Of a DNA stretch of 63,477 nucleotides, positions 1 through 53,368 are shown one piece after another. The stretch is from a virus. The position numbers were made by a program, and so were the translations under genes. The stretch is taken from positions 1 to 63,477 of the IMG/VR virus record IMGVR_UViG_3300009528_000014; one strand, given 5' to 3'. Each line of letters opens with the position of its first letter. Position 1 is the first letter of the stretch. The notes below the pieces were generated by a model. It saw only the letters and a list, made by a program, of their open reading frames with translations, ran no database searches and was not told the DNA's origin.

Positions 1-532
1 CAAAATATAAAATTATAGGTTGTTTACCTTCATGCGCAGCCAATTCAAATCTAACTTTAGCCGAATTAAGAAATGTCAATGATGGATAACCTTTACATGG
101 ATTAAGAGCAACATCCCATTTGTTACAGGTTTCTTCAAATACACCTTGTTGTGCTTTTTTTTCAATAAATACTTCTGGATAATACGGTTGATTATCCCAT
201 CTATTTTTATGATAACTTGTAGCCCAATTTTTTATTTGTTGTTTTGCTATCCCAGATTCAGTTTCTACATCAGTTTCTCCATAAGCCGTACTCCCAATCG
301 TTTCTCTTTCGTGGTCAACAATAGCCTCAAATTCAAGTAACCCTTCCCACCTCGCCCATATCATTGCATTAACCACTTTTTTATAATGAGGCATATCGTT
401 TGTCATTCCCATTGCTACTAATTCATAATAGATTTCACGAATAGTTATATTACCCTCATAACCTTTAGTAACGGGAATTCCATTTTCAATAATCCATTGT
501 TTTGTAAATCTTGATTTAATGTTTTCTTTCAT
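1..532 (-). CDS. Toprim/topoisomerase-VI-A-like protein, N-terminal part (runs off the window)
   Basis: The gene starts with ATG at 532-530, overlapping the helicase stop (ATGA), and stays open for 177 codons to the window edge. The N-terminal segment reads like a TIREIYYELVAMG / NAMIWARWEGLL region, and a later CKGYPSLTFL segment is followed by KQPIILYF. This matches the order in phage and actinobacterial proteins with a winged-helix N-terminus and a Toprim (Spo11/TopoVI-A type) domain, where YF is normally followed by GDxDPSG. The last base before the edge is the first base of the next codon and is G, as expected for Gly. The remainder is probably the fragment at 63164-63477. Family assignment is by motif memory; the role in DNA metabolism is inferred from the adjoining helicase. 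Confidence 0.6.
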   Translation of the reverse strand, partial: MKENIKSRFTKQWIIENGIPVTKGYEGNITIREIYYELVAMGMTNDMPHYKKVVNAMIWARWEGLLEFEAIVDHERETIGSTAYGETDVETESGIAKQQIKNWATSYHKNRWDNQPYYPEVFIEKKAQQGVFEETCNKWDVALNPCKGYPSLTFLNSAKVRFELAAHEGKQPIILYF

Positions 533-3465
533 TTCTCCCCTTCCTCCGGTGGTTGACACAAATATTCTCTTTTGAATTTCTCTGGGCCCAATTCCTCGTT
601 AAGATGTTCCTTGAGATAGTCACCCCATAGTGCCTCATTTAAGAACCGGCTCGGCAACTGCGTCCTTGCCTTCCCGGTGAAGCCTATCCTTTCCTCTGCC
701 CGAGTAAACAATAATCTTTCCTTTGCCCGAGTAACCGCAACATAAAACAGTCGGCGCTCTTCCTCAATCAAATCCCTTTCGGTCTTTCTGGTTACGGGGA
801 ATGTCCCCTCCTCGCAACCGGGTATGATAACCACCGGCCACTCAAGACCCTTCGCGCAGTGGACAGTCATCAGGGATACCCTGTCCTCGTCCTTCTTGAT
901 TGAATCGGTCGCCTCTATCTGAACCACGCTGTCAAGGAACGACCTCAGGTCAGAGCCCTCTTCCCGCTCAAGGAAGTCGGGGATTTTATACTTCAGGAGC
1001 CAGTCCACGTTCTCAAGTCGTGTTTTAAGTTCCTGCTCCTTTAAGGAGTGAAGGAAACACCCCTGAGTCTCCAAAGACTTATTGATAAACTTCTCCACCA
1101 GGGCATCAACGGACAGGTTCTTTAGATCCTCTTCCCATCCGTAGACCTCCAGTACCTTCGCTGTCAGGGTAGGCTCTATTGATTTAAAGAGGCTCATCCC
1201 CTCTTCTATGGCGATTGACTTCATGGTCTGGAGCTCAACCTTGTCTATGAGCAGATGGGAAATTTTCAGTATCCGCTCCATTATATAGTCATCATCTGGG
1301 TTCAGGATAGTCCTTAAATAAAGCATAATCTCCCTTATTTCAGACCGGTCCCAGAAGCTATCCCTTGAGATAACTTGATAGGGGATGTCCTTCAGAACCT
1401 CCCGGAACTTGTCAATCTGGCTGTTCGTCCGGGTCAGGATGGCTATATCCTTGTATTTATAGCCCTTTTGCTCAATAAACGCCTTTATTTGCCCCTCAAT
1501 GTATGAAACCTCGGAATCCCCGTTATCTGCCACGTATAGCCCAAAGCTCGCTTCTGTAGGGGCTTCTCGCGTGGGTTTGATGATTTTATCCGCCCTTTCC
1601 TTATTATGGGCTATAAGGTTGTTAGCCAACCGGCAGATTTCGGGGACTGAGCGATAGTTATACTCAAGGTTTATAGTCTCTAAATCGGGGTGTCTTTCCT
1701 TGTATTTCATAATATATTCTATACTTGTGCCACGGAAACAATTATGGGTTATTATTCCATTGGCAATTATATGAGGAACACCTTCAATAACCAAATCAAT
1801 GAACTCGGTATCACACTTGATTTTCTCAATCTTATAAATTGTATCCTGTGAAAATTTATTTTCATCAAAGGTAGGAATAATCATACCTTCTACTAATTGA
1901 GTGGCAGGCATTATCTTATACCCATTCCCCGCAATCGATGCTTTGTGTTCGTAAAGAGTGTAATACCCCCGATTTTTCAATTCCTCAAGCAAACGATCCG
2001 ACTTCTGATATAGAACCGATGAGATGGAATTACATGAACGAAGTCGATAATAATCTCCTCGTTTTTTTGCTCCATGATGTACCATGATTTCACTCGCGAT
2101 AGCAGTTTCACAAATTAACTCATTTCCATTCTTTGTTCCAGAAATGATATTTACTTTAATTCTTTTCTTCCTTTCTTCACCTTGCACACAACAATGAGGA
2201 AATGAAAAATCATAACCCCTGTTCTTTAACAATTTAAGACCGCTATCCCCAAAGTCTCGGAATATTTTTAAGTGAGCTCTGTCGGGAAGTGCCATTTTTC
2301 GCCTTTGTTCAAAAACACGGGTTGGAATTTTGTATTTTAGAGATAATAATTCTTCTTGGAGAATAGCTTCCCACGATTGTTCATAATGGTCAATAAGCCA
2401 TATCTTATCTGCGTGTTCGCTTCGCATACGTTTATGAATAAAACCACAGTTGTCAAATCGGGATTGGGTGCCTGAGGTTGTCCCAATCCTAAATCCATAA
2501 CCTTCACGATACATCAGATAAACGAAATACCCAGGCATATTCCTTGGTATTTTAACGATAGCAAGATGATCGCCAGTAACTATTAATTCTCGCCCTTTCT
2601 TTGTCATTATTTTTATTGCGTTGTGAGGTTTGGAAATAACTTTTTTTAATATTCTATCTTTGTAAAGTTTTCTCCCTTTATTAGAAAATATTCGTTGTCC
2701 TACTTCTAAATCTTCAATGTTGATTTTACCTTCAGGAGTCAGTATCTCCGTTCCTTTTTTTATGCAATACACGTTCTGATCAGGATCACCTACAACAAAG
2801 GTATTCTCTATGGCGAGAGTCCGGCACATCTTATCTTCGAGCGAAGCCACGTCATGGAACTCATCATAAAATATGTATCCGTACCGGTTACGGTAGTACT
2901 CAAGGACTTCCGGGTGTTCGTTGAGTACCTGAACCGCAAGCGACAGAATCATATCGAAATCTACGGCGTTGAACTTCTTGAGGCGCCGACGGTATTTAGA
3001 GTCAATGTTCCTCATTTCAACTGCCTCTTTATAACTGCCCTGGGACTCCCCTATTGCATAGAAATGAAGCATTTTCTTAATGCTGACCTTATGCTTCCCC
3101 TCTGCTATTATGCCCTCAAGGATGTCCCTCTTGTCAAACGGGTCGTAGATACTGAAGGTTTCGCTCAGCCCTATCTTATCGTGCCACTTCCTCAGTATCG
3201 AAAGACAAAAGGAATGGGATGTCCCTATGGTCATCTTCTTCATTGTCTCATCATCAGTGAGCTTCTTTATGCGCTCCTTCATCTCCCCGGCAGCCTTCCG
3301 GGTAAAGGTAATGCAGAGTATCCTCAAGGGCGAGATACCTTCGTTTAGAAGTCTCTTTGCCCGATTGGTCAGCACGAGGGTCTTACCGCTTCCGGGTACT
3401 GCAAGTATCAGTATATTCCGGGAATTACTTGAAATTGCCTGCAATTGCTGGTCGTTTAGATTCAT
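529..3465 (-). CDS. UvrD/PcrA-family superfamily 1 DNA helicase interrupted by an intein
   Basis: ATP-dependent 3'-5' DNA helicase of the UvrD/Rep/PcrA type. Visible motifs: Walker A VPGSGKT (residues 23-29), motif Ia TFTRKAAGEM, Walker B FYDEFHDV near 199-206 (DEFH rather than the usual DEQD), motif III GDPDQNVY (226-233), and C-terminal motif VI VAVTRAKERLL. Motif III is split by a 342-residue intein (residues 234-575); splicing would restore NVY-CFRGTS and give a 636-residue helicase, close to the family's usual 650-720. The start ATG at 3465 has AAAGGAGCA upstream. It ends in an ATGA overlap with the Toprim-like gene, so the two are probably co-translated. Likely role: phage DNA replication or recombination. 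Confidence 0.9.
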   Translation of the reverse strand: MNLNDQQLQAISSNSRNILILAVPGSGKTLVLTNRAKRLLNEGISPLRILCITFTRKAAGEMKERIKKLTDDETMKKMTIGTSHSFCLSILRKWHDKIGLSETFSIYDPFDKRDILEGIIAEGKHKVSIKKMLHFYAIGESQGSYKEAVEMRNIDSKYRRRLKKFNAVDFDMILSLAVQVLNEHPEVLEYYRNRYGYIFYDEFHDVASLEDKMCRTLAIENTFVVGDPDQNVYCIKKGTEILTPEGKINIEDLEVGQRIFSNKGRKLYKDRILKKVISKPHNAIKIMTKKGRELIVTGDHLAIVKIPRNMPGYFVYLMYREGYGFRIGTTSGTQSRFDNCGFIHKRMRSEHADKIWLIDHYEQSWEAILQEELLSLKYKIPTRVFEQRRKMALPDRAHLKIFRDFGDSGLKLLKNRGYDFSFPHCCVQGEERKKRIKVNIISGTKNGNELICETAIASEIMVHHGAKKRGDYYRLRSCNSISSVLYQKSDRLLEELKNRGYYTLYEHKASIAGNGYKIMPATQLVEGMIIPTFDENKFSQDTIYKIEKIKCDTEFIDLVIEGVPHIIANGIITHNCFRGTSIEYIMKYKERHPDLETINLEYNYRSVPEICRLANNLIAHNKERADKIIKPTREAPTEASFGLYVADNGDSEVSYIEGQIKAFIEQKGYKYKDIAILTRTNSQIDKFREVLKDIPYQVISRDSFWDRSEIREIMLYLRTILNPDDDYIMERILKISHLLIDKVELQTMKSIAIEEGMSLFKSIEPTLTAKVLEVYGWEEDLKNLSVDALVEKFINKSLETQGCFLHSLKEQELKTRLENVDWLLKYKIPDFLEREEGSDLRSFLDSVVQIEATDSIKKDEDRVSLMTVHCAKGLEWPVVIIPGCEEGTFPVTRKTERDLIEEERRLFYVAVTRAKERLLFTRAEERIGFTGKARTQLPSRFLNEALWGDYLKEHLNEELGPEKFKREYLCQPPEEGEK
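1741..2766 (-). other. Intein in the UvrD-family helicase (motif III)
   Basis: In-frame insertion of 342 residues beginning with Cys (CIKKGTEIL, splicing block A), a TGDHL block B around residue 65-69 of the intein, and ending in IITHN followed by an extein Cys (block G plus +1 nucleophile). It interrupts the conserved DPDQ-x-x-Y / FRG motif exactly, a typical active-site insertion. The central part, with VYLMYREGYGFRIG and several Cys/His residues, shows no clear LAGLIDADG motif. Its beginning is weakly reminiscent of a GIY-YIG-type start, but I cannot assign the endonuclease class. All splicing residues are present, so it is probably splicing-competent. Confidence 0.9.
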
Positions 3466-3812: not shown

Positions 3813-5018
3813 TTATTCTCCTTTTTTTTTTAAAAAAGTATTTATAATATATTTACTGGAATATCCCATCAGCATTGCTTGTTGAAGGTCGGCTATCGTA
3901 GTATTGTCCACCACACTCGTATTGTCCGGTATTTTGGTATCCTGATAAAATGCGTCCATAAATGCTTTGAATGTTTCCATGGAAACATAACCTATATGTA
4001 CCGTGAGGTCTATCCTTCCGGGACGTGTTATTGAGCCATCTAATTTGTCAAAATGATTGGTAGTGGTTATAAGAATACGCCCATGGGTATCCGCGATTCC
4101 GTCTATGTTGTTAAGAATATCGCTGATGTTAGTTGGGTCAAACAAAAGTTGGAGGTCTGGGGGATTATTATTTTCATTTTTTCTAAGACATGTACTCTGA
4201 TTTGTATCTATATCCTCTATAACTAAAATTACATTTTCCGGTAATAATGGTATGGCTACGTCAAGATAAATCATTTTACATGCAGATAATATATAAATAT
4301 CCCTGTTAAGATAAGAAGCCACAGCCTTAATTAAACTGGTTTTGCCCGTGCCCGGGTTTCCTTCTAAACAAATGCCAAGCCTATATGGTATGCCATGTTT
4401 CAAATACCACTCCTCTTTTTTAGTAAAATTGTTAAAAGTATCAATAATTAAATCTTTCTTGGATTGCTCAATAAACACGGAATCCCAGGGTCTTTTATGT
4501 TGACTCTGAGTTAGTCTCCACGTTTCAGTTTTAAATGTGTATACCTTTATCTTATCCGGGTCTTTATTTTCCATCTCGCGTATAATATCATTAAATATAC
4601 TATGACTTCTGCCGAGTTTTGTTATCGTTAATTTTTCTTTATCATGGAAATCTCTTGACTCTATCTCTGCTAATGACAACAATAAAGGATTTAAAAACTT
4701 ATTTTTATAGAACAGGATGTGAGTTCCGGTACCCATACCTTTCTGCTGTATTTCATCTCCCCATCGACCGTTTCTTAATTTTATGACCCTGAACTTTTTT
4801 GAATATTTATTAACATCAACCCATCTCATAAATAAATGAAAAATCTCATTTGAACTGGTCAGTTCTAATTTGGTTGTAACACGTTTTTTAAAAAATTTAA
4901 GTATCGATGCTGGAACATTCCGTAATAGGTATGTGAGTATACCCAATCCATACAAAGATAACATGCCTGACACAACTTGATTCTGTTCAGATAATTTTAA
5001 TATTGAGGGAATATCCAT
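3813..5018 (-). CDS. BCS1-like AAA ATPase with N-terminal membrane anchor
   Basis: 401 residues. A hydrophobic segment at about 16-34 is followed by a BCS1-type linker and a C-terminal AAA module: Walker A EGNPGTGKTS (219-228), Walker B VILVIEDID (263-271), sensor ITTTNHFDKLD and the arginine-finger region RPGRIDLTVHIG. This is the architecture of mitochondrial BCS1 (a translocase of folded proteins) and of BCS1-like ATPases known in large phages and bacteria, where the substrate is unknown. ATPase activity is well supported; the cellular role is not. The stop lies 3 bases from the next gene. Such proteins in defence loci sense or kill infected cells; here the gene is embedded in a phage replication operon. 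Confidence 0.85.
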   Translation of the reverse strand: MDIPSILKLSEQNQVVSGMLSLYGLGILTYLLRNVPASILKFFKKRVTTKLELTSSNEIFHLFMRWVDVNKYSKKFRVIKLRNGRWGDEIQQKGMGTGTHILFYKNKFLNPLLLSLAEIESRDFHDKEKLTITKLGRSHSIFNDIIREMENKDPDKIKVYTFKTETWRLTQSQHKRPWDSVFIEQSKKDLIIDTFNNFTKKEEWYLKHGIPYRLGICLEGNPGTGKTSLIKAVASYLNRDIYILSACKMIYLDVAIPLLPENVILVIEDIDTNQSTCLRKNENNNPPDLQLLFDPTNISDILNNIDGIADTHGRILITTTNHFDKLDGSITRPGRIDLTVHIGYVSMETFKAFMDAFYQDTKIPDNTSVVDNTTIADLQQAMLMGYSSKYIINTFLKKKGE

Positions 5019-12262: not shown

Positions 12263-12504
12263 CTATTCTCCTTATCATCCATCTTTGGCGAGGCAGGGGG
12301 ATCACCCCTGTTTAACAGCCGTGCATATTGACTGCCTCGCATGCCGTCATTTCGTAAAACGGCATTCGTCCTAATCTCCTCTGCAACACCCGGGAGTATG
12401 GGCTGGACTACGGTTGCACTTAGGCGATCGCCACAACTTGAGTGATGAACTCTTGTGGTTATCTCCCCGCCAGAGATGGATGACTTTAGTTTTTTAATGT
12501 TCAC
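12259..12504 (-). CDS. Hypothetical small protein
   Basis: 81 residues, GTG start with GGGAGTCAA upstream. Low hydrophobicity, with a single Cys and Arg-rich stretches (GMRGSQYARLLNRGD). No motif recognised. It overlaps the 3' end of the regulator gene by 11 bases and should be co-transcribed with it. Confidence 0.45.
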   Translation of the reverse strand: MNIKKLKSSISGGEITTRVHHSSCGDRLSATVVQPILPGVAEEIRTNAVLRNDGMRGSQYARLLNRGDPPASPKMDDKENR

Positions 12505-12982
12505 TTGACTCCCTTTCGACCACTTCTTTCAATCTATCCCTTTCGCACTTCAATTCTTCAATCTCCCTTTCCGCTTCTTCAAGCAGGGAGTTATCAATTT
12601 TCACTTTTTGAAAATGCTGATTTATTTTATGTGCTTCCTGCTCCCTCGGTATGCTTTTGCCCGTTGCCCAATTATGAATCGTCTGTCTTGACACTCCGGT
12701 TGCATTCTGTATTTCAGTAAGCTCAAGAAGGGCCCAGTTCCCTACCCTATACAACCTTTTCATTATGTCTGCGATTTTCTGCGAGTTTATTGTAGGAACT
12801 CCATGAACATAGGAAGGATTCTTTAAAATAAACTTTTCCATTTTTCTTTTCGTTCTCTTGCTTGGGTTGGACTTGCCCGAGAGAATCTTGGATACTGCCA
12901 TCGGGGTTAGCTTAAATTCATCGGCAAGCCCTCTTTGGCTCATTCCTTTATTTATTAGTATGTTCTTAATTTCATTTATCAT
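12494..12982 (-). CDS. Double helix-turn-helix (XRE-type) transcriptional regulator
   Basis: 162 residues. First HTH at about 9-40 (GMSQRGLADEFKLTPMAVSKILSG); second at about 85-112 (LTEIQNATGVSRQTIHNWATGK); then a C-terminal coiled coil (about 125-160) likely to dimerise. ATG preceded by GGGGGAATACT. Directly upstream lie a 21-bp palindrome overlapping a candidate -10 element and a terminator-like hairpin, the usual arrangement for an autoregulated phage repressor or Cro-type switch protein. It heads the DNA-metabolism operon. Whether it maintains lysogeny is inference. Confidence 0.85.
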   Translation of the reverse strand: MINEIKNILINKGMSQRGLADEFKLTPMAVSKILSGKSNPSKRTKRKMEKFILKNPSYVHGVPTINSQKIADIMKRLYRVGNWALLELTEIQNATGVSRQTIHNWATGKSIPREQEAHKINQHFQKVKIDNSLLEEAEREIEELKCERDRLKEVVERESSEH

Positions 12983-18657: not shown

Positions 18658-19878
18658 TTATTCTCCCTTCTGGAATATCCCTACATAGGTATCAAGCTCG
18701 CCTTTTCTTTCGTAATGTTCGACTTGGTCATGCAGTAACTTCAAGCCCAGTAGCTTTGCACTTTCGTGAAAAAAATCCTGATTGATGGCTATCTTGTGAC
18801 CTTTCCAGATCTGGTCGGGCTTCCTGATCTCCACATTTATAAACAGCTTGCCCCCGGGCTTGAGTATCCTAACCATTTCCTTCATGCACTGATTGGCATC
18901 CCGGGTGTGGTCAAGGACGTTCATGGTACATACGACATCCGCATAATTAGGGGGCAGGGGTATGTTCTCCCCGGGAGCATTAATCGAAATATAGTTTGGA
19001 TTCTCATCTATCCATCCCATCTCGATATATTTGTTGGACAACGAGTCGACCGCAATGCCTATCCTGCAGGTAAGCCCCCTGATTATTCCCCCCAGTGGGC
19101 CTGAGCCGACATCAACAACGATTTTGTCCTTGCAGGAATCCTCCAGTTCCTTCTTTATTTTTTCGTCCTTCGACATCTGGGGAACGCCTATCTGGGGTTT
19201 GCCGATTCTTTTCAGGACTTTCACCCACCAGCCATGCTCGAATTTTTGGCAGTTGTGCCACTCCTCTTCGGAAGTATCCATTATTAGATTGTCATTTTTT
19301 TTTACGCTCAATTTTCTGACAATACAACTGAAAAAGAAAGTGTTTTGCAGATAGTCTGCTCTTACTTTAATATCGCTGGGATCCTCTGTTAATACACAGA
19401 GAGTTTTTGCAAGACCTTCTTTTGAATAACAACAAGGATGCTCATTGCTCTGAAACTGATTTTCGGAATTATTCATGTGCGGGGTTGAGCCCACAAAATA
19501 CCCCCCATCCTTTATTATCCTTCTGACCTCCTTTAAAAAGAGGATTCCCTCATCCTCGTTGATATGCTCCAGCCCTTCAAAGCAGAGTATAACATCAAAG
19601 GTGTTATCTTTGAACGGTAAGCGTTTCCTCATGTCCCCCTCAACTATGTCAAGATTATATTTCTCTTTAGCGTATGTTCTGAGCTCGGCATCCATCTCCA
19701 TGCCTGTGACATTATAAGAAAAGTGTTTGCAGAGCATTATCCCCAGACCACTGCCACAGGGCACGTCCAGAACCGCATTATTTTTGATATAGTCGAAAGC
19801 ATACATATACCGGTTAAGAAAGTTTTTTAATGCTCTCTTGGTATTCTCGTTGTAAACATCCAGGCAGATTGCTTTCAT
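18658..19878 (-). CDS. Tandem SAM-dependent methyltransferase
   Basis: 406 residues with two class I methyltransferase domains. First domain: motif I VLDVPCGSGLGIML (about 39-50) with downstream DVILCFEGLEHINEDEG. Second domain: motif I VVDVGSGPLGG (about 255) with DVVCTMNVLDHTRDANQ and LKPGGKLFINVE. Both nucleotide-binding loops look intact. Two-domain methyltransferases of this kind occur in sugar-decoration clusters. It overlaps the upstream glycosyltransferase by four bases and lies 2 bases from the radical SAM gene. Confidence 0.85.
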   Translation of the reverse strand: MKAICLDVYNENTKRALKNFLNRYMYAFDYIKNNAVLDVPCGSGLGIMLCKHFSYNVTGMEMDAELRTYAKEKYNLDIVEGDMRKRLPFKDNTFDVILCFEGLEHINEDEGILFLKEVRRIIKDGGYFVGSTPHMNNSENQFQSNEHPCCYSKEGLAKTLCVLTEDPSDIKVRADYLQNTFFFSCIVRKLSVKKNDNLIMDTSEEEWHNCQKFEHGWWVKVLKRIGKPQIGVPQMSKDEKIKKELEDSCKDKIVVDVGSGPLGGIIRGLTCRIGIAVDSLSNKYIEMGWIDENPNYISINAPGENIPLPPNYADVVCTMNVLDHTRDANQCMKEMVRILKPGGKLFINVEIRKPDQIWKGHKIAINQDFFHESAKLLGLKLLHDQVEHYERKGELDTYVGIFQKGE

Positions 19879-21287
19879 GGGGAAAATCTCCTTCTTACCT
19901 CATTCTGATGTTCATTCGCAAGTTTTGACCCGAAGCTCGTATTCGACGCATGTTGCCTGTACTTCAGTATGGGCTTATTTATAAACTTAAATTTCTTTCC
20001 GGCTCTATGTGCCCGCAGATACCACTCATAATCAAGGACTCGCTCAACGGAAGGATCGTATTTCCCCACTTCAATGAAACACTGCCGGCTCGTGAGTGAG
20101 CAGTCCTGGGCTATATAATTCCCCTCTTTTATCATAGCATCGAAATCAAACGGCTTGCCGAGCGTCTTGCCTTTTGTGGTTAGATCCTCATCATACACTT
20201 CTACGGTACCGTGGACTATGTCCGAGCCATCAATATTTTCAATCCTCGTCTTGAGTGAGTCAGTATACATCACATCGTCACTTGAAAAGGTGCAAATATA
20301 TTCCCCCTCAGCTTTATCGAGAAGGAAGTTGACGGTCTTTCCGAACCCTTGATGGCTCAGGTCGAAGATTTTTATCCGTCTGCTCTTCCCATATTTTTCC
20401 AGTATCCTGGAGGTTTCATCCGTGCTTCCGTCATTACCGATGAGGAGCTCCCAGTTTTTGAACGACTGTGCTTTTACGCTCCTGATGGCCTCTTCGATAA
20501 ACCCGGACTGATTGTAAGTTGCCATGATTACAGAGATGATGGGCTTAACCTCATAAAGATTTATGAGCATGTCGTTCTTTTTCAAAGACATTCCCCATTT
20601 TTCTTTGAACAACTTATCGCCGTATGAGATGTCAGTATTTTCCCACCCCTTTGCTTTTAGGTGGATTAGCTTCACATCCGCCACGGCAATGTCATATCCT
20701 GCCCTCACAAGCCGGAGGTTATAGTCCACATCCTCACCCCCGTAGGTTGTGAAGTCCTCGTCCAGTTCGCCTATCTCATCGTATACACTCCGCCTGAGCA
20801 TAAGGCAAATCATATTAAGGGGTGTACCTATTTTGATAAAATCAAAGTCCTTAACAAAACTGGACTCTTGCATTTCAGGATTCCCCGAAGCACCATCGTT
20901 TACATAAGGGCTTACGGCGCCGATCCGTTGCTCATCCAGTACCCCCCTCATCTTCTCAAGCCATCCGTCCTCGCAGACAAGTGTGTCATTATTCATAATT
21001 AGCAGGTAATCTCCAGAGGCAGACCTTATGCCCTTGTTTATCGCCTTGGCAAAGTTAAATCTCCCCCCTCCATAATCGATTACGGTACTCCGTTCCGAAA
21101 GCCACTCCCTCGCCTCGGGGATAACCTTATCGGCTATGATGATTAATTCATAATCCTTTGAGTTCCGTTCTATGCTCTCGATGCAGTCTTTTGTGAAATG
21201 AAACTGTGTCTTGAGAGTCCATCTACTGCCGTCATAGACATTCATCTTCCCTGTTTTTATAATGACCGGCATTATAATACTGACCAT
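19875..21287 (-). CDS. Two-domain family 2 glycosyltransferase
   Basis: 470 residues. The N-terminal GT-A-like domain (1-230) has DYLLIMNNDTLV and GEDVDYNLRLVRAGY. The C-terminal GT2 domain (250-470) has SVIMATYNQSGFIEEAIRS, LLIGNDGSTDET, YICTFSSDDVMY and DYEWYLRAHRAGK. DxD-type metal sites are present in both (NND, SSDD). Likely a bifunctional sugar transferase adding two residues. Part of the glycan cluster. Confidence 0.88.
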   Translation of the reverse strand: MVSIIMPVIIKTGKMNVYDGSRWTLKTQFHFTKDCIESIERNSKDYELIIIADKVIPEAREWLSERSTVIDYGGGRFNFAKAINKGIRSASGDYLLIMNNDTLVCEDGWLEKMRGVLDEQRIGAVSPYVNDGASGNPEMQESSFVKDFDFIKIGTPLNMICLMLRRSVYDEIGELDEDFTTYGGEDVDYNLRLVRAGYDIAVADVKLIHLKAKGWENTDISYGDKLFKEKWGMSLKKNDMLINLYEVKPIISVIMATYNQSGFIEEAIRSVKAQSFKNWELLIGNDGSTDETSRILEKYGKSRRIKIFDLSHQGFGKTVNFLLDKAEGEYICTFSSDDVMYTDSLKTRIENIDGSDIVHGTVEVYDEDLTTKGKTLGKPFDFDAMIKEGNYIAQDCSLTSRQCFIEVGKYDPSVERVLDYEWYLRAHRAGKKFKFINKPILKYRQHASNTSFGSKLANEHQNEVRRRFSP

Positions 21288-21298
21288 TCCCTCTCCTG

Positions 21299-22351
21299 TT
21301 ACAGAAAATTTACATGTTCCTTCTTCTGCTTAATGTTCCAGAGAATCACGTTGAACGTATCGCACCTGCAAAGTGACGGGCAGTCCCTGAAGTCGATGGC
21401 CTCGTACACCTTTCTACGTTGACCGGACTCCCATATTTCTTTAAGTGAGTTCTTACTCAGGTCGCCGAGGCAGTACTTCCCCACCCCCCTCATGTGGCAG
21501 CATAGGTACATTTTTCCATCGGCACATATCGTGGTGGCAAAGTGATGCCCGTAACACTTCCCGTAGGGTCTTTTGACTGTATCGTTTTTTATATTATCGT
21601 ATTTATGCTGGGAGTACAGTACCTTAAAGTCCCCCTCGCTGTATTCCTGGCAAAGGCGTTCTATAAACTGAACGGACTCCCCAGTATCGTGCTCAATGTC
21701 CTTAACATCAAATGACGGTAGGTAAGGTCTGAACTGAACATAATCAACCCCGAGGTTCTTACCCATAATCACGAAACGCCGCATGTCCTCAAAGTCAGAT
21801 GGGGTCAGGTACCCGAGCCCCACGGTCGTTCGGAAGCCCGTTAATTTTTTCATCTTTACGAGGTACTTTATATTCTCGACCGTCCTCCTGAAATCCAGCT
21901 CGCCCATCCCGTGGCTCTTGAGATAGCCTTTCGGCGATCCGGCATCGAGGCTGACCCTGACCCACAGGACACTGCCCATTACGGCGACGGCAATCCGTTC
22001 ATTCATAATACTGCCGTTTGTTATCACTCCGACATCAAGCCCCAGAGCACTGGCGTACTCTATAAGCTCCGGGGTGTACTTGCAGCAGAACGACTCCCCG
22101 CCCCCGGTGAAAGTAACTGCCTTCCCACCACAGTCCTTTATCTGTTCAAGGATTGAAATTGTCTGCTCATGCGACAGGGTTACCTTGCTTTTTTCTTTGA
22201 AGCCAAAACACATGGGACACTTGTGATTACAAATATTAGTCATGTCCAGTTCATAAGTGATGGGCTTTGTTATACCATCCCTGACCCATTCGCTTATCCT
22301 GTCGGTATGTGCGAGTATTTTATCCGAGCTGAACTGTTTCACGTGAAACAT
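21299..22351 (-). CDS. Radical SAM protein with SPASM-like C-terminus
   Basis: 350 residues from ATG 22351 (GAGAGGAT upstream). Radical SAM CxxxCxxC motif ICNHKCPMC near residue 45, then VTFTGGGESFCC, ITNGS and VRVSLDAGSP. The C-terminal Cys cluster (YLCCHMRG ... YCLGDL ... DCPSLCRC) suggests an auxiliary Fe-S cluster as in SPASM/Twitch enzymes (peptide or sugar modification). The first codons coincide with a perfect parS palindrome. Lies between glycosyltransferase genes; substrate unknown. Confidence 0.85.
   Translation of the reverse strand: MFHVKQFSSDKILAHTDRISEWVRDGITKPITYELDMTNICNHKCPMCFGFKEKSKVTLSHEQTISILEQIKDCGGKAVTFTGGGESFCCKYTPELIEYASALGLDVGVITNGSIMNERIAVAVMGSVLWVRVSLDAGSPKGYLKSHGMGELDFRRTVENIKYLVKMKKLTGFRTTVGLGYLTPSDFEDMRRFVIMGKNLGVDYVQFRPYLPSFDVKDIEHDTGESVQFIERLCQEYSEGDFKVLYSQHKYDNIKNDTVKRPYGKCYGHHFATTICADGKMYLCCHMRGVGKYCLGDLSKNSLKEIWESGQRRKVYEAIDFRDCPSLCRCDTFNVILWNIKQKKEHVNFL
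22335..22350. promoter_or_regulatory. parS: Canonical parS (ParB-binding) palindrome
   Basis: TGTTTCACGTGAAACA, a perfect 16-bp palindrome identical to the conserved bacterial chromosomal parS sequence bound by ParB/Spo0J. It overlaps the start codon of the radical SAM gene (encoding MFHVKQ). I saw only one copy, and no parA/parB gene was recognised in the window. Confidence 0.75.
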
Positions 22352-22352
22352 A

Positions 22353-23186
22353 TTACATCCTCTCAATTTTCCATTTCTTTTTCAATGCTTCGTCTGACGA
22401 GGTGATGTTTGACATATCGCGCCTTACCCTTCCGTATTCTGTTGTCTGGTCAAACGAGGGAAAATGAAACATAACAGCAAGTGGGCAATACTTAATCCTA
22501 TAACCCTGCTTCCTTGCCGAAAGCATAATATCCCAGTCCTCGTGGTGGTAGAAGTTCGAGTCAAATCCTATATCTTCTAATAGTTTCTTCCTGTAAATCG
22601 TCGCCCCACCAGGAGCGATGTCTATTTTGTCCGGGGACATATATCCCCTTGAGTCCGGGATCTTCAATTTGTCGTTGGAATAGTCTATCCTCAATCTGTT
22701 TTTTATTAAAACAATTTTCCTGCCTCTTGTTATCACATGGTCTTTTTCCATAATCTTGGAAAAGACCACGCCCAGCTTTTCATCTGAACTAATTTCATTA
22801 TAAAGACTCGTAAGGAAGTTTTTCGATACCGTGCAGTCATTGTCAAGAAATAATACATACTCCCCTGCGGAGCTTTCAGTAAGCACGTTCCTTCCCCTCC
22901 CCACGCCTAAATTCGCGGGGCAGAATATAAGGCTGATAATGTCGTTCCCATCCGCCAATTTTATAAGCTCACTCCTTGTCGCCTCATCCGAATTGTTGTC
23001 AAGGACGACTATCTCAAAATCGCAGGGCTTGAAAGCCCGCATTAATGATCGGATACATTTCTTTGTTTCCTCAACCCTGAAAAATGAGAGTATCCCTATC
23101 GAAAGAATGGGATTAAATTTCCTTTTTCTCTTATACCTCTTGCCTATGAGCTCTGTTTTTATAATATATTTCTTTGCCTCAATCAT
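22353..23186 (-). CDS. Family 2 glycosyltransferase
   Basis: 277 residues. SIGILSFFRVEETKKCIRSLM, FEIVVLDNNSDEATRSE, and the metal-binding VLFLDNDCTVSKNF identify a GT-A fold GT2 enzyme, with ATIYRKKLLEDIGF and HHEDWDIMLSARKQGYRI downstream (the ED-type acidic acceptor motif). No membrane segment. Overlaps the upstream glycosyltransferase by four bases. Donor and acceptor unknown. Confidence 0.88.
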   Translation of the reverse strand: MIEAKKYIIKTELIGKRYKRKRKFNPILSIGILSFFRVEETKKCIRSLMRAFKPCDFEIVVLDNNSDEATRSELIKLADGNDIISLIFCPANLGVGRGRNVLTESSAGEYVLFLDNDCTVSKNFLTSLYNEISSDEKLGVVFSKIMEKDHVITRGRKIVLIKNRLRIDYSNDKLKIPDSRGYMSPDKIDIAPGGATIYRKKLLEDIGFDSNFYHHEDWDIMLSARKQGYRIKYCPLAVMFHFPSFDQTTEYGRVRRDMSNITSSDEALKKKWKIERM

Positions 23187-23881
23187 AACCCCAAGTCCTC
23201 AATTATTTTATTGGCGCATTTCTTTTGTGCTTTGAGATTTGCAATGCTAATTTGTTTCTCATGCACCCGCCAGTAATAAAGGATTTCACCGACTGATTTG
23301 ATTTTCCATCCCGCTTTTCTTGCCCTCGCCCATAAGTCAAAGTCTTGGGCGTAGTAACAATTTTCATTATATCCATCGAGCTCCTCTATAACTTCCCATC
23401 GTATCAGTGGGCTCCCGCCTGCGAATACACCCGCAAGTTTTCTATCTGGAATGGACTCGGGATTATTACAGGACTGGCTTATCTCATTCCCTTCTTCATT
23501 TATAAGCATATACCAGCAGCCGACTACTCCGTTAAGATTTACGGACTCAACCATCCTGAGTTGCTTTTCTATCTTGAAAGGATGGGCGATGTCGTCCGCG
23601 TCCTGCCGGATAATATTCTCGCCCTCGCAATGATTGAGCCCGTAGTTCAGAGCCCGCGTGAGCCCGATATTCTTCGTGGTATGGACGAGCTTTATTCTGG
23701 GGTCTTGTTCGCTGTATTTTTTGATTACCTGAACTGAATTGTCCGTCGATTTGTCGTCAACTATCACGAACTCGAAGTCGCCGAAGGACTGGGTTAGAAT
23801 GGACTGGATGGCTATGTCGAGCCAGTAATTCCTGTCCCCGTTGTGAACGCACATGAGAACGCTTATTTTTGGACGTTTCAT
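23183..23881 (-). CDS. Family 2 glycosyltransferase
   Basis: 232 residues. KISVLMCVHNGDRNYWLDIAI, FEFVIVDDKSTDNS, IIRQDADDIAHPFKIEKQ (metal-binding DADD) and AQDFDLWARARKAG give a complete GT2 GT-A domain. First gene of the glycosyltransferase/radical SAM cluster, 17 bases after the small coiled-coil membrane protein gene. Substrate unknown. Confidence 0.88.
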   Translation of the reverse strand: MKRPKISVLMCVHNGDRNYWLDIAIQSILTQSFGDFEFVIVDDKSTDNSVQVIKKYSEQDPRIKLVHTTKNIGLTRALNYGLNHCEGENIIRQDADDIAHPFKIEKQLRMVESVNLNGVVGCWYMLINEEGNEISQSCNNPESIPDRKLAGVFAGGSPLIRWEVIEELDGYNENCYYAQDFDLWARARKAGWKIKSVGEILYYWRVHEKQISIANLKAQKKCANKIIEDLGL

Positions 23882-33227: not shown

Positions 33228-34330
33228 AGGATACGGAATGAAAAAAACTTTTAAATATAGAATATATGCCAACCGAGACATTCTTACCAAAACCGACGGA
33301 GTCCTTAATCTTTGTAGAATCCTTTATAATCTTTGCCTTGAGCAACGAATTGATGCCTACAAATACCACAGGAAATCCATTTCTAAATATGACCAGATGA
33401 AACAACTTCCCGACCTCAAAAAAGGTTTTCCTGAGTTTAGAAAAGTTTCTTCTCAAACACTTCAGGATGTAATTGACCGTCTTGATAAATCTTACCAGTC
33501 CTTTTTCCGTCGAGTAAAGAGTGGAGAGAAAGCGGGTTTCCCGAGATTTAAGGGATTTGATAGGTACGATTCTTTTACACTCAAACAAGCAGGTTGGGAA
33601 CTTGATGATAAATATCTTACCATAAAGAAACTCGGTAAATTCAAGATTAGACTTTCTCGCCCCATTGAAGGTGTAATCAAAACCGTAACTATCCGCAGAA
33701 CTCTTTCCAATAAATGGTTTGTCTGCTTTGCTTGCGATAATGTTCCCGATAAGCCCCTGCCAAAAACGGGCAAAACAATAGGTATTGATATGGGATGTGA
33801 ATCTTTCCTTACTGATTCTAATAATAGAAAGATAGATAACCCTCGGTTTCTTAACAAGTCGCAAGACGTTCTTCTTAAACGTCAGCAGTCCCTCTCGCGT
33901 AAAAAGAGGGGTTCTATCAGGCGAGGCAAAGCAAGGTTGCTTGTGGCAAAGATACACGAAAAGATTGCTAATCAAAGACTTGATTTTCATTTTAAAGTTG
34001 CTAATAAATTGGTCAAGGAAAATGATATTATCTGTATAGAAAAACTCCATAGTTGGAAAACATTCAGAAAAATCAATAGGTCTATGGATGATGTTGCTTG
34101 GTTTAATTTCTTCAATATACTTCAATTCAAAGCGGAAGAGGCTGGAAAAGAAGTCGTTGAAGTCCCCGCCAAGAACACATCCCAGATGTGCTCGTCCTGT
34201 GGGGCAATAGTTAAAAAGGATTTGTCTATTCGTATCCATCGTTGCTCCTGTGGTCTTGAAATAGACCGTGATTATAATGCTGCTCTAAACATTTTAAGGC
34301 TCGGGCAGAGCCTTTAGGTTTCCGTATCCT
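33228..34330 (+). repeat. 11-bp inverted repeat bracketing tnpB
   Basis: AGGATACGGAA at 33228-33238 (covering the tnpB RBS) and its exact reverse complement TTCCGTATCCT at 34320-34330, just after the tnpB stop. Pairing within a full-length transcript would block the ribosome-binding site. Confidence 0.75.
33238..34317 (+). CDS. tnpB: TnpB RNA-guided nuclease (IS200/IS605 family)
   Basis: 359 residues, complete. RuvC catalytic residues are visible: Asp184 (GIDMG), Glu268 (ICIEKL) and Asp343 (EIDRDYNAALN), with a zinc finger Cys318/Cys321/Cys336/Cys338 between the last two. The N-terminal WED/REC part begins KKTFKYRIYANRD. TnpB proteins are RNA-guided DNA endonucleases that keep IS elements at their donor site using an omega-RNA from the transposon right end. 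No tnpA is present, so this is an IS1341-type, tnpB-only element. It is the only clear gene on the plus strand and sits in the tail operon between the tail-tube and tail-chaperone genes. Confidence 0.95.
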   Translation: MKKTFKYRIYANRDILTKTDGVLNLCRILYNLCLEQRIDAYKYHRKSISKYDQMKQLPDLKKGFPEFRKVSSQTLQDVIDRLDKSYQSFFRRVKSGEKAGFPRFKGFDRYDSFTLKQAGWELDDKYLTIKKLGKFKIRLSRPIEGVIKTVTIRRTLSNKWFVCFACDNVPDKPLPKTGKTIGIDMGCESFLTDSNNRKIDNPRFLNKSQDVLLKRQQSLSRKKRGSIRRGKARLLVAKIHEKIANQRLDFHFKVANKLVKENDIICIEKLHSWKTFRKINRSMDDVAWFNFFNILQFKAEEAGKEVVEVPAKNTSQMCSSCGAIVKKDLSIRIHRCSCGLEIDRDYNAALNILRLGQSL

Positions 34331-42971: not shown

Positions 42972-45900
42972 TTAGCTCCCCTTCGTCTTGGGCAGTACGC
43001 CTTTCTTAAATACCGCTATCTCAGCACCCGGGCTTACTCGTTTCATTATCCAATATCCCTTTAACTCCTTACCCTCGAACTTAAACGATGCGAACTCTTC
43101 TGTGTCCTCAATCCAGTTGACTGTTCCTGAGTCTATTATCTCCATGAATGCCGGCAGAACCTTATTCGGGTTGCCCTGCTCCTCCCCACGTTCTTGGATG
43201 TCCCTGTAAATGTTGTTCCGGGGGTCGAGCCATACCCGATCGCCTGTCTTAAATAACTTCGCAAGGGTCGGCTTTGTTTCGAGCTTTTCACCCTTGTCAT
43301 CCTCTACTATAAAGTTATCGTCTACTTTTGAAATTATTTTTACTTTTTTATATGTCCAGTCAACGGATTCGCCCTTCTTCGGGGCGATTGAACCTTCCCA
43401 TGTCATCCACTCTTTGAACGACTTTCCCGACGGTGTGGGGCAGTCGCATTTTTTCCTTGTGGCTGTAGTTACCTCAACTACCAAAGGATTTTTTTCTATA
43501 TTCCATTCATCGATAAAATCTTTGCCTGTATCAATTAATAAGTCATAGTGCTCAACAGGCACGCCTCTCACTACAATGGGTCCCCGCCACCAGTGTCTGC
43601 GTAATAAATATCTTCCCACCGCTTCCTTTAATTTCCTTGCTTTTATTTCTTCCCTATCTACAAGGTCGTTAAATGCCTCATCCATCATCTTTATTTTTTC
43701 ACCCCTGCTTAGTTTCTTTTCCCACCACCTCAATTCAGGCTTGACTTTCTTTTCCCATTCCGGGGGAAGCCCAGACTCCCCATCGGGCGGGGCGTAATCC
43801 TTCTTCTGTCTCCCCCGTTTTGATAATAGATAGGGCTGCTGATCCTCGAGGTTTGTCCAGCACTGCCATATCATTTTCTCTTTTGGTATCTTCTCCCATT
43901 CCTTGCCCACGGGGATAAGGCGCTCAACCATTCGTCCCTTGAAGTGCTTCATGTCAAGGAAGAACTCTTTGAAAAATGGCTTCATCACTCCCGGATACGC
44001 CATGCCATCATCCATTGTGATAAATACCCCAGGCTCAAATTTCGTCGCCCCGACTGATTCAGGCTCAAGGACGACCTCGCGGACATTCAACCATTCCAAC
44101 GGTTGTTTCTCCTTTTGAACCATGACTACCTTTTTATTCGGGTCCATGTCGGGAGTGAACTTTCCTTTCTCCAATAAAACCTTATTCCATTTCCTGCCCT
44201 TTTCAAGAGTATCTACTTCCTCGGTTATCTGATCTTTGTGGGCGTTCATTAAAGTCTCACCCTCTAAAAATCCATTCTGCTTTCTTCTGAAGTCAGCATG
44301 AACAGAGCGCCCGCGAAAATGATTGAGCATAACTGCATAGTTCTTGGGATAATCCTTCGGGTTCTTCTTAAACAGTTCCTTCAGTTCCACAGGAATCTCA
44401 ATGGGCGGGGGTGGCACATTACGAGCGACCTTCAACAGGAACAGAGTCTCTTCCGGGCTGAGTCCTTGCGATTCTGTCATTGACACGAACTCCTCGGTAG
44501 ACATAAAGTCTATATCTTCGTATCTTACAACCGACTCATAAATTATCCCCCCATCTTCCATCACGTGTTTTATCTGAAGAACTCGTTCCTTCCGTGCCTT
44601 CTCCACAACATCCTCGACTTTATCGGGCTGAGTCGGAACTTTCATCTCAACGTTCTCGAGAGGTATGAATCTCGGAGCCCATGCCGATACGGAATAAGTA
44701 TCAGTCTTTTTATCATGGATATAGTTGAACGTCTCGAACTCTATCGCTATGATGTCACCTCTCTCTTTCTTCTTGTCCGTGCTAAAGCTCTTTCCGGTTT
44801 CGAGCCAGTTCTTACCTTTGACCTCTGTGAGGTCTCCGGGCTTGACTGGAAGCCTTCCCGGGTCCAGTCCGTAACGGTAATTGAACGTGGTTGGAACTTT
44901 GGTCGGGATTCTCTCAAGGACTATCCCGAACAGGACGGCGTTGTTATGAAACTTAATCCACGCATCCCGGGCGTTACCGTCAAGGTAATATCTGTCCTCG
45001 CTCTTTTTTAAAACGTTGCCTTCCGAAGCGACAAGCTTTCTGACTTTTTCTGTATGCTCCCGCAGTTCTTTTTTATTAGTTGATGTGAGATTAGGAACGA
45101 GGTTAAGCCTGAATTTCATATTCGGCTTTTCCCATGTCGATTGTTTTATTCCTAATTCTTTTAAAGTCTTCTGTCTTACAAGTTCATCCTCTTTGTGCAG
45201 TGCCTTACCCTCGTAGTAAAGGCAGGTGAATAGATTGGAAATCATCTGGCTATCATCTGGCGGGGTCTTTGCGTGCACATACCCTGCTGAAGCTTCTCTC
45301 GGCTGATGCCTACCTTGAATCCAACGCTCGAGTTCCGCTCCAGCTATAAATGATTTTTTTACCTCCTTTATTTCTTCAACCGTTTTTGGTAATCTTTCAG
45401 TTATGATTTCACCATCTTCGGAGAATATCATAACCTTGCCTTTTCCATCCGAATGAATTTCTATCGCCATACCGTCATATTTTTTTGAATTAAAAACGGG
45501 GTAATCATCTTCATCGATAAGATTCAAAAAACTATCTATGGTCATTCTCTGGTTCGGCTTCGCACCCTTGGTCGGCTTCTGCATAAGGAAGAATCTGAAC
45601 AGTTTAATATCATCCTCATCCGCCGACTGCTTCGCCTGTTTCCTGAGCTCGGGCCCGGCTGCCCTTGGGACCTGCTCCTCAATACTCTGATAAAATCTTT
45701 TCTTAAATCCTTCGTCATCGACTTCGTGAACAGATGTCTCCTTCTTCGGGACAAGGACGAGGTCGTATAATCCCATCCACCGCCAATTCGGGCCCGTGGC
45801 TTCTGCGATAAGATGTGCCGGTTCGCCATATATATCCTGCGATATTCTTTCAAGCTTCATCACGAGGGAGGTCGGAAGTTCCTTTGACCTCACAACCCAG

Positions 45901-47903
45901 TCGGCATCCTCGGGCTTACGTTTTTCCGCGAACATCTTCGAGCCGGTCTGTGTCACAAAGTTCTCAATCCACAGGACCGGTCCGACTTCCTGAATCTTCT
46001 TCATTATCTTCTGGGCCCGCCTGTCAATCTTCTCGCTTTCGGTCAGATCGGACTTCACTATTTTATCAAGCTCATTGACTTTAAAGTTTATGCTCCTCTT
46101 TGTAAGTTCCGAAATCATCAGGGCATCCGCATTTATTACAAGCTCATCGTTCTTTCTACTGCCCCTGCCAACCCATAGATCAAATAACTTATCGTGCATT
46201 TTGATTAACTGTTCCTCGCTTGCTTTCATGTATATCTGGGGAGTCCATTCGTCGGGCTTGAAGTCTATTTGTTCATAAAGATGGACTTTCCTTAACAGGA
46301 AATTTGATATTAGTAATTCTTTCCTTGATACATCAATCCATGGATGTTCTCCGATTTTGTTACCTGCCTTTATGGTCATAAAATTGAAACCTGAAAATTC
46401 TGATTTTATTTTCTCATTATCTGGTAATGATAGAATAAATAATCCCGAATATTTTTTCAGTGCTGATGATAATTCCGATATGTCAATCTGTTTATCTTCA
46501 AAATTAGATGAGTCGGGATAGGGCGGATCGAGATAGGCAAAAGATTCTTTCGAATCATATTTGCTTAGAATATCTTTATAATCTTTTGAGTATATCTCTG
46601 CACTTCTTAATCTCTCTTTTAGTTTTGGTAAGTTTTCAATTCCCTTCCATTCTTGATTTATTCTTAATGGATTGGCTTTATCACCACGACTGGAAAATGA
46701 ACCCCAACGAGTAAAAATAAATTTATGAAATTTTTCTTCCATTGTCTGGGGATTGCTTGCTTTAACTTTTTCAAAAGAATCTTTTGTTAATTTCCAATCC
46801 ATATTTTTTAATGCCTCCACGTCGGATTGGTTTGAATTTTTTATAAACTTATATGCAGAAATTATCCCCGAATCAATATCATTTATAACTTCAATTTTAC
46901 TCGGTTTCTTTGAGAAGAAAACAGCTCCCCCGCCCACAAAGGGCTCGACGTAAATTTTATGTTCGGGAATAAAAGACACAATTTGTTTAGATAAAAATTT
47001 TTCCCCTCCCGGTGACCCGAACGCAGGACGGATACCTTCTTTGAAGTTTCCCTCGTCCGCATTCCAGATATTCGGGTTTGTGTTATCCTTAAAATTCTTG
47101 CTCGCTTCGCTCTCCTTTATTTCTTTAACGGAATTGACCTCGCCCTTCCCGTCCCCCTCAAAAGCCCATGTCTTAAAACAGTCCTCGCAGAAAAACGCGT
47201 GAGCCATGCCCTCAGCCCATAAGACCTCATACACCGGGGGCTTTGAACATTCCATGCACTGGTCTCTTCTATGCCTCGCCTCGGCTATACGTTTCAGTTT
47301 GGTATCAAAGAAAATCTGGACATCCTTTGGGACACTCACGGGTACTGGTTCCTTGAAGCCGATGAAATCTTTTATTGGGTAAAAGAAAAACGACTCCTTA
47401 TTCTTCCACCAGCTTATTCGTTCCTGCTCGCTTATTTGGTGTTTATTTAAAAGTTTCTCAAATTCATCAAGTCCGATTTCCTTCGGCGAGTTAAGTCTTA
47501 TAAACCCGTAAGCCTTCTTGCCGGAAGTCAGTAAGTAGAAGTTCCCCGTTATGAATTTCTTTAGCTTAATAATCCCTTTCTTCGTGCCCTCGGCAACCAG
47601 TTGACCGTGGGGCAGTGTAAGGTAAAGTCCTTTATCTACTATTCGTCTGAAGCCCTCAAGGTAAAGCTCTCTTGGAGTTTCCTTCCACTTGTTTGAATGG
47701 AATTTTATCTTTCCGCGCCTTATCATTTCGGACAGGTTCTTAACCAGAGCGTCAAGGATTTGTTTTTTAGTATGCACGAACTCGCCCTTCTCTTTGAGCG
47801 TAGTCCACCAAGCTCCCAAAATCCTCCAGTCGTCGGCTAACTGCATATCCGTTGACTTCGTGGGGTCAAAGGTTTTAATGTCTTTTATTTCTTTTAATCT
47901 CAT
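42972..47903 (-). CDS. Giant multidomain enzyme: zinc ribbon, Dam-like methylase, NTase-like, DNA-ligase-like and LigD-phosphoesterase-like domains
   Basis: 1643 residues in the head operon. Domains by motif: unassigned alpha/beta N-terminus (1-200); zinc ribbon Cys216/219/239/242; Dam-type (D12) adenine methylase at about 293-535 with YVEPFVGGGAVFF (318-330) and catalytic DPPY (459-462); a nucleotidyltransferase-like segment with TGSKMFAEKRKPEDADWVV (653-671); an ATP-dependent DNA-ligase adenylation motif KKYDG (Lys807/808-Gly811) with SEDGEIITE and IAGAELER (853-860); OB-like region about 1010-1080; and LigD 3'-phosphoesterase-like segments (VHADFRRKQNGFLEGETL at 1201, EHYDLLIDT at 1451, and the C-terminal FEGKELKGYWIMKR at 1609). 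The methylase call is firm; the ligase and phosphoesterase calls rest on short motifs in the right order. Genes of the same operon encode minor head and protease-capsid proteins, suggesting it is packaged or acts on packaged DNA. Confidence 0.65.
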   Translation of the reverse strand: MRLKEIKDIKTFDPTKSTDMQLADDWRILGAWWTTLKEKGEFVHTKKQILDALVKNLSEMIRRGKIKFHSNKWKETPRELYLEGFRRIVDKGLYLTLPHGQLVAEGTKKGIIKLKKFITGNFYLLTSGKKAYGFIRLNSPKEIGLDEFEKLLNKHQISEQERISWWKNKESFFFYPIKDFIGFKEPVPVSVPKDVQIFFDTKLKRIAEARHRRDQCMECSKPPVYEVLWAEGMAHAFFCEDCFKTWAFEGDGKGEVNSVKEIKESEASKNFKDNTNPNIWNADEGNFKEGIRPAFGSPGGEKFLSKQIVSFIPEHKIYVEPFVGGGAVFFSKKPSKIEVINDIDSGIISAYKFIKNSNQSDVEALKNMDWKLTKDSFEKVKASNPQTMEEKFHKFIFTRWGSFSSRGDKANPLRINQEWKGIENLPKLKERLRSAEIYSKDYKDILSKYDSKESFAYLDPPYPDSSNFEDKQIDISELSSALKKYSGLFILSLPDNEKIKSEFSGFNFMTIKAGNKIGEHPWIDVSRKELLISNFLLRKVHLYEQIDFKPDEWTPQIYMKASEEQLIKMHDKLFDLWVGRGSRKNDELVINADALMISELTKRSINFKVNELDKIVKSDLTESEKIDRRAQKIMKKIQEVGPVLWIENFVTQTGSKMFAEKRKPEDADWVVRSKELPTSLVMKLERISQDIYGEPAHLIAEATGPNWRWMGLYDLVLVPKKETSVHEVDDEGFKKRFYQSIEEQVPRAAGPELRKQAKQSADEDDIKLFRFFLMQKPTKGAKPNQRMTIDSFLNLIDEDDYPVFNSKKYDGMAIEIHSDGKGKVMIFSEDGEIITERLPKTVEEIKEVKKSFIAGAELERWIQGRHQPREASAGYVHAKTPPDDSQMISNLFTCLYYEGKALHKEDELVRQKTLKELGIKQSTWEKPNMKFRLNLVPNLTSTNKKELREHTEKVRKLVASEGNVLKKSEDRYYLDGNARDAWIKFHNNAVLFGIVLERIPTKVPTTFNYRYGLDPGRLPVKPGDLTEVKGKNWLETGKSFSTDKKKERGDIIAIEFETFNYIHDKKTDTYSVSAWAPRFIPLENVEMKVPTQPDKVEDVVEKARKERVLQIKHVMEDGGIIYESVVRYEDIDFMSTEEFVSMTESQGLSPEETLFLLKVARNVPPPPIEIPVELKELFKKNPKDYPKNYAVMLNHFRGRSVHADFRRKQNGFLEGETLMNAHKDQITEEVDTLEKGRKWNKVLLEKGKFTPDMDPNKKVVMVQKEKQPLEWLNVREVVLEPESVGATKFEPGVFITMDDGMAYPGVMKPFFKEFFLDMKHFKGRMVERLIPVGKEWEKIPKEKMIWQCWTNLEDQQPYLLSKRGRQKKDYAPPDGESGLPPEWEKKVKPELRWWEKKLSRGEKIKMMDEAFNDLVDREEIKARKLKEAVGRYLLRRHWWRGPIVVRGVPVEHYDLLIDTGKDFIDEWNIEKNPLVVEVTTATRKKCDCPTPSGKSFKEWMTWEGSIAPKKGESVDWTYKKVKIISKVDDNFIVEDDKGEKLETKPTLAKLFKTGDRVWLDPRNNIYRDIQERGEEQGNPNKVLPAFMEIIDSGTVNWIEDTEEFASFKFEGKELKGYWIMKRVSPGAEIAVFKKGVLPKTKGS

Positions 47904-52612: not shown

Positions 52613-53368
52613 TCAGGCTATGATTAATAAAAAAATAAAGACTATCGAAAGGCGGGGGGAGAGGATGGTCTTCAGGGTCCGCAGGGCTTGTTTGAAGAGC
52701 TGGCATATCCTTGACTCGCAGACACCCACGTTCCTCCCGGTTTCCTTTAGGGAGAAACCCTCGAGCCCATGGAGCCTCACTATCCTCGCCGTCCTTTCCG
52801 GGAGCTGCTCTATCGCCCTTTGGAGTAGACCCGCCCTTTCATTCTCCACGGCCTTTACAAAGCCTCCTTCCTCCTGCCCTCTTATGTGGGGGATATGCTT
52901 TGCTGTCTGCGCAGGGCCCAGGACTCGCTCCGGGAAGTGCTCTGAGAGCTTATACGCTATGTCCATGAGCTTTAGTCTCTTCCTCCCTTTTTCCTTCCCT
53001 TCCCCCAGAAGCTTCAGTTCCTCCTTCAGGTACCTGCTTATCTGGTCAAAGTCCCTCAGGCCATCAAGGACCGCCCCCCTTATCCTCGCGCAGGCAAAGG
53101 TCGGGAACTTGAAGCCCTTTCCGGGGTCATACCTCTCTATCGCCTGGAGGAGCCCTATAAGCCCCCATCCCCTCAGGTCCGCGGGTTCCATGAGCCTGTT
53201 GGCCCTCAGGTGCCACATCTTGTGCCTTGATATGGTAAAGTTGATCAGGGGCGTATACATGCCCAGTAGGGCGTCCCTATGCCTCATCTCGCCCTTTTCC
53301 TTGTACCTCTGCCACAGCTGGGCCTCTGATAGGGGCTTGCGCCCTCTTTTCTTTTCAGGCTGGCTCAT
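52613..53368 (-). CDS. FliA/WhiG-like alternative sigma factor
   Basis: 251 residues. Sigma region 2 at about 30-111 with DLRGWGLIGLLQAIERYDPGKGFKFPTFACARIRGAVLDGLRD, and region 4 at about 180-233 ending in an HTH (SLKETGRNVGVCESRICQLFKQ). An RGRKP AT-hook-like motif lies at residues 8-12. The last 12 residues (LSIVFIFLLIIA) are strongly hydrophobic, odd for a sigma factor. Located right before the non-coding region and terminase, so it probably switches RNA polymerase to late promoters. Promoter specificity cannot be read from the sequence. Confidence 0.85.
   Translation of the reverse strand: MSQPEKKRGRKPLSEAQLWQRYKEKGEMRHRDALLGMYTPLINFTISRHKMWHLRANRLMEPADLRGWGLIGLLQAIERYDPGKGFKFPTFACARIRGAVLDGLRDFDQISRYLKEELKLLGEGKEKGRKRLKLMDIAYKLSEHFPERVLGPAQTAKHIPHIRGQEEGGFVKAVENERAGLLQRAIEQLPERTARIVRLHGLEGFSLKETGRNVGVCESRICQLFKQALRTLKTILSPRLSIVFIFLLIIA

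Follow-up and report, generated by a model that had tools for sequence, protein, structure and literature searches.

The closest described system is that of phage phi29, for which spore trapping reportedly makes use of the Bacillus subtilis ParB/Spo0J protein (PMC9437464, citing Meijer et al. 2005). The virulent phi29 carries, on a 19-kb genome, four identical one-mismatch copies of parS (TGTTTCACGTGGAACA) at 10445, 15903, 17243 and 18760; one of these is found at nucleotide offset 446 of gene 15 and the other three elsewhere. Two further cases bear on the question: SGI1, whose parS-like sites hijack the ParABS system of IncC plasmids (PMC10954446), and the extrachromosomal mycobacterial prophages, which are plasmid-prophages with a ParABS of their own (PMC7157519). 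The window analysed here, a whole stretch of 63,477 nucleotides, follows phi29 in kind. Like phi29 and its relatives (Salasmaviridae), it represents a phage without ParB that carries the chromosomal parS of the host. However, whereas the use of host ParB is reported for phi29 in the source cited above, it is predicted from the sequence for the window phage; moreover, phi29 combines several sites with a spore-forming host and Spo0A control, whereas the window phage is siphovirus-like, unrelated to phi29, carries one site at the start of a gene and probably infects a non-sporulating host. SGI1 resembles the reading favoured below in that a mobile element bearing parS mimics borrows the ParB of another replicon for its stability, but it relies on the ParB of a helper plasmid and on the motif of that plasmid, whereas the window harbors the canonical chromosomal motif. 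By comparison, plasmid-prophages such as P1 and its extrachromosomal mycobacterial counterparts share with the window a centromere-like site on the phage genome, but they encode both ParA and ParB and use their own sites. The window thus displays the phi29-type arrangement, in which the phage carries parS but encodes no ParB, and not the P1-like one, in which ParA and ParB are encoded near parS.

The 16-mer at the center of this analysis (Table 1) is a perfect palindrome and an exact match to the canonical chromosomal parS, taken here as the 16 bp TGTTTCACGTGAAACA with at most one or two changes according to the consensus used in PMC10197239. No other match is found in the window at up to three mismatches, a tolerance at which shuffled sequence yields 0.29, and the number of exact copies expected in the window ranges from 2.3e-5 to 5e-6 under Markov orders 0 to 3. 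A chance occurrence is therefore unlikely, and the initial annotation, which had described a perfect palindrome identical to the conserved parS and rare by chance, is borne out.

Table 1. Coordinates of the parS site and of other features of the 63,477-nt window.
Feature	Coordinates	Strand	Basis or remark
Perfect canonical parS 16-mer TGTTTCACGTGAAACA	22335..22350	.	Exact, single copy; ~1e-5 expected
Radical SAM/SPASM protein, 350 aa (MFHVKQFSSDKIL...)	21299..22351	-	Pfam Radical_SAM E 2.4e-18, SPASM E 1.9e-8; first 17 nt contain the site
Glycosyltransferase family 2 (GT2), upstream gene	22353..23186	-	Domain scan; its stop abuts the radical SAM start
Surface-glycan cassette: methyltransferase, GT2, radical SAM, GT2, GT2	18658..23881	-	Dense same-strand gene run
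Cro/CI-type HTH regulator (two HTH stretches)	12494..12982	-	Domain scan; not linked to the parS site
UvrD-type helicase	529..3465		Weak Hint/intein matches
BCS1-like AAA protein	3813..5018		
18-bp perfect palindrome ATGTTTCCATGGAAACAT	3971..3988		Inside the BCS1-like AAA ATPase gene
TnpB-like gene	33238..34317	+	OrfB_IS605, Cas12f1-like TNB
1643-aa ORF	42972..47903		Methyltransferase and ligase domains
Sigma-70-type factor	52613..53368		Regions 2 and 4

On the minus strand, the ATG at 22351 opens a frame that reads ATG-TTT-CAC-GTG-AAA-CAG (MFHVKQ), preceded by a Shine-Dalgarno-like GAGAGG and directly following the stop codon of the upstream glycosyltransferase gene (22353). The parS site occupies bases 2-17 of the radical SAM/SPASM gene, beginning at the T of the ATG; the earlier description of the site as covering the start codon is right as to the overlap and has to be corrected in that the site sits one base inside the coding sequence. 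The surface-glycan cassette to which this gene belongs leaves almost no intergenic space, with tail genes not far away, so that the variable N-terminus of the radical SAM protein may be one of the few places able to accommodate a DNA site. A similar placement at a gene start is seen in Listeria phage P100, where parS (3001-3016) overlaps the start of gp159, the GTG start codon lies inside the motif and the protein begins VKQ.

The position of the site exactly at the start of a gene in a glycan run also lends itself to a different interpretation, whereby host ParB binds the site for purposes other than segregation, either as a decoy that titrates ParB and disturbs host division or as a ParB-dependent switch on the expression of the glycan cassette. 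In Streptococcus, promoters close to a single parS can respond to the ParB bound there (review PMC7022226), and many parS-carrying phages are virulent, with no known dormant state to segregate. We nevertheless regard such a role, the main rival to partitioning or tethering, as rather improbable, because one site per genome would titrate weakly until late infection, no promoter is shown at the site, the radical SAM gene lies in the middle of the run, and the neighbors of parS in other phages are unrelated genes.

In a scan of genome contigs, Elusimicrobiota, Omnitrophota and Sumerlaeota yielded relatives of the radical SAM protein with 47-51% identity, and several of the Elusimicrobiota relatives have a GT2 gene at the same upstream position. 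This resemblance to gene pairs in Elusimicrobiota and related phyla is what speaks for the other origin that the initial annotation had envisaged, namely that the site entered together with a host gene picked up close to a replication origin. The bacterial loci do not follow suit: none of the ten relatives with a readable start (47-51% identity) has parS there, the best parS match in their loci has three or more mismatches, and none of the parS-like sites of their genomes was found in the loci around the radical SAM gene. Judging from these relatives, the gene did not bring parS with it, and capture along with the site is a highly improbable origin. The proteins of these bacteria start with MISVNQFSS, MKVSQFSS or MDVRQFSS, and up to 11 of the 16 parS bases match at their gene starts; the ATG and the GTG-AAA-CA of the motif coincide with their semi-conserved M-x-x-V-x-Q start, which leaves only about six parS bases fully free. 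Such a head start is an argument for pure coincidence, in which an M-x-x-V-K-Q start and two free codons happened to spell the palindrome, and it is compounded by the many features screened in the first reading of the sequence; set against the number of copies expected in the window and against the scarcity of control palindromes described below, this coincidence has very little probability. The best reading is that parS would have arisen in the phage lineage, at a place where the M-x-x-V-x-Q start already supplied part of the motif.

Among phages, the only relative found to carry the site is a near-identical contig (99.987% over 38.9 kb), and no close known relative emerged when phage records were searched with 20 kb of window DNA. 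The MFHVK peptide is absent from all relatives found except this near-identical strain. The exact site is likewise absent from eight distant phage relatives (structural proteins 32-49% identical), several of which are fragments; either the trait is not ancient in the group that shares this capsid and portal, or the fragments miss the site.

The recognizable portal, head morphogenesis, capsid-protease, tape measure, minor tail and terminase proteins show the window, an IMG/VR virus record, to be a long-tailed phage. Among the window proteins scanned with PHROGs and/or Pfam, some of which went through one library alone, there is no ParA, ParB or integrase, and no match to the ParB_N domain appears in the window even at E<=10, in agreement with the initial annotation, which had recognized no parA/parB or integrase. 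The AAA protein is BCS1-like and not a ParA. The suggestion that the ends indicate a circular molecule is upheld in part: once joined, the ends give a continuous open frame of about 300 codons, but they show no terminal repeat or overlap. Since the ends join in frame and since the near-identical second contig stops exactly at window base 1, the genome is probably complete or nearly so. Several other genes deserve mention. The UvrD-type helicase has its weak Hint/intein matches between its two helicase parts, and the insertion there is probably an intein; the 1643-aa ORF, located between the portal/head and capsid genes, combines D12-class DNA methyltransferase and ATP-dependent DNA ligase domains; the TnpB-like gene lies in the tail region, opposite to the other genes; and the phage-encoded sigma-70-type factor points to a bacterial host.

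As the window encodes a regulator with two HTH stretches, the 16-mer might be the operator of a phage regulator, for instance this CI-like protein, and merely resemble parS. The 18-bp palindrome within the ATPase gene has the same arms (TGTTTC...GAAACA) as parS, which speaks for this reading, but its core is different and it is in-frame coding sequence of the AAA ATPase. A window search for TGTTTCN4GAAACA at up to three mismatches gives 50 occurrences against 39 expected, which is not a clear enrichment, and the repeats sought near the CI-like gene include no copy of the site. Neither search supports an operator, and identical copies of the 16-mer exist in unrelated phage groups; we judge this explanation very unlikely.

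What specialists may find surprising in these results is how widely lone parS sites are distributed among phages. Exact copies were sought, with the 16-mer padded with Ns, in 50,697 annotated phage records totaling 2.3 billion bases, in which about 0.5 matches would be expected for any given 16-mer. The canonical site occurs in 286 of these records (824 strand matches, or 412 places), many of which are close relatives of one another, 87 being Listeria phages. Two control palindromes of identical base composition, one of which also retains the CACGTG core, are not found at all in the same records. The carriers listed span roughly 20 groups, apparently unrelated by name and taxonomy, and comprise Listeria P100-like myoviruses, Lactobacillus Herelleviridae, phi29-like phages, Vibrio phi 3 and Roseobacter DSS3P8, together with Gordonia, Arthrobacter, Microbacterium, Clavibacter and Butyrivibrio phages, microviruses and inovirus-annotated genomes. 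In IMG/VR, the site is present at no fewer than 120 loci, compared with 7 and 5 for the control palindromes, whose frequency in viral contigs is thus at least 17-24 times lower; when the motif is extended to 18 bases by G/C flanks, at least 120 loci are again reached, though such flanks occur on only 4 of 146 sampled sites. A rough extrapolation from the matches listed, whose sampling may be non-random, puts the IMG/VR sites in the thousands. Some of the IMG/VR carriers may be plasmids or pieces of host DNA; Terminase_6N, which is one terminase family only, was matched in 17 of the 50 carriers of about 15 kb or more. Some genomes hold several copies: bajarodino virus 6 (annotated as Inoviridae) has six exact copies in 5.9 kb, nearly all intergenic, and bajarodino virus 69 (also annotated as Inoviridae) has ten strand matches, that is five copies, in 5.8 kb, one of them directly after a stop codon. 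In Gordonia phage Woes, the copies at 3001 and 3422 are each centered in a longer palindrome whose outer arms differ between copies.

Most carriers have parS without ParB, as a ParB_N domain (E<=0.01) is found in only 5 of 85 IMG/VR carrier records, many of them fragments, and in 1 of 15 named parS-bearing phages, the other 14 lacking ParB. Lone parS avoids coding sequence: at the 120 IMG/VR loci listed, 61 of 146 sites (42%) fall inside an ORF of at least 100 codons versus 84% of random positions. Short gaps and gene edges are frequent locations in the named phages, some of which have the site within genes. One such coding site allows conservation of the DNA to be distinguished from that of the protein, since B103 and Chedec 11 carry the exact TGTTTCACGTGAAACA at the same gene 15 offset as the phi29 copy. 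Between these two phages the codon is shared at only 105 of 195 identical residues of gene 15, yet all codons across the site are identical, which points to conservation of the DNA site itself in phages devoid of ParB.

Evidence on the host comes from the structural genes and from the parS sites of the candidate phyla. A capsid search gave only weak matches in Elusimicrobiota, confined to 1 of 248 genomes, and one good match among 237 Omnitrophota genomes, in a 67-kb contig that has a related portal, a related capsid and two neighboring structural-region genes, and is without parS. Exact canonical parS is present in 39 of the 237 Omnitrophota genomes (the reversed control has 0 among the matches listed), in several cases as paired copies about 80-200 bp apart, whereas in five Elusimicrobiota-type genomes the parS-like sites, clustered in some, differ from the canonical one by a single base (TGTTTCATGTGAAACA). 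The presence of both the portal-capsid module and the canonical parS makes an Omnitrophota-like host plausible, and these sequences point, if weakly, to the host being probably of this kind.

With one perfect parS and no ParA or ParB of its own, the phage most likely borrows the ParB of its host. That the 16-mer is, in some form, a selected site for host ParB is very probable. We further consider it likely, with somewhat less assurance, that it is a putative loading site for host chromosomal ParB, which evolved inside a tailed phage lacking ParB and serves partitioning or tethering. In this mechanism, the ParB of the phage's own host would bind the phage-borne parS, form a closed CTP clamp and spread; the cell would then handle phage genomes as it does its own origin regions, and they would be tethered, positioned or segregated by ParA, with SMC possibly loaded onto the phage DNA. 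The benefit to the phage would arise while its genome stays in the cell without lysis, as a carrier state, an episomal lysogen or a delayed infection, partitioning or tethering in such a state being less certain than the predicted binding. The single copy, the relatives without the exact site, the overlap of part of the motif with the M-x-x-V-x-Q start and the coding start, which is not the commonest location for such sites, all count against this mechanism. The initial proposal that the phage persists as a plasmid and borrows host ParB is strengthened in its second half by the enrichment of parS in ParB-less phages and by the phi29 precedent; its first half is not established, since a virulent phage could likewise lack an integrase and have joinable ends, and since virulent phages are numerous among the carriers.

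On a wider scale, the odds appear evenly divided as to whether a host chromosomal parS without ParB is a widespread and repeatedly evolved phage trait, letting phage DNA ride the host segregation machinery in non-lytic periods. It could equally hold or fail that this proposed trait spans large virulent myoviruses, actinophages, phi29-like phages, filamentous and microvirus single-stranded DNA phages, and uncultured phages like that of the window. A survey of parS in ParB-less phages was found in none of the open papers searched, and the counts suggest that lone parS sites are common in phages and largely unreported in the open literature. If the proposed role is true, a phage would exploit the chromosome-segregation machinery of its host through one 16-base site and no extra protein, and the parS 16-mer would be a simple sequence marker for such phages. 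One question that thereby becomes testable is whether virulent phages have a non-lytic, partitioned state for which they need host ParB.
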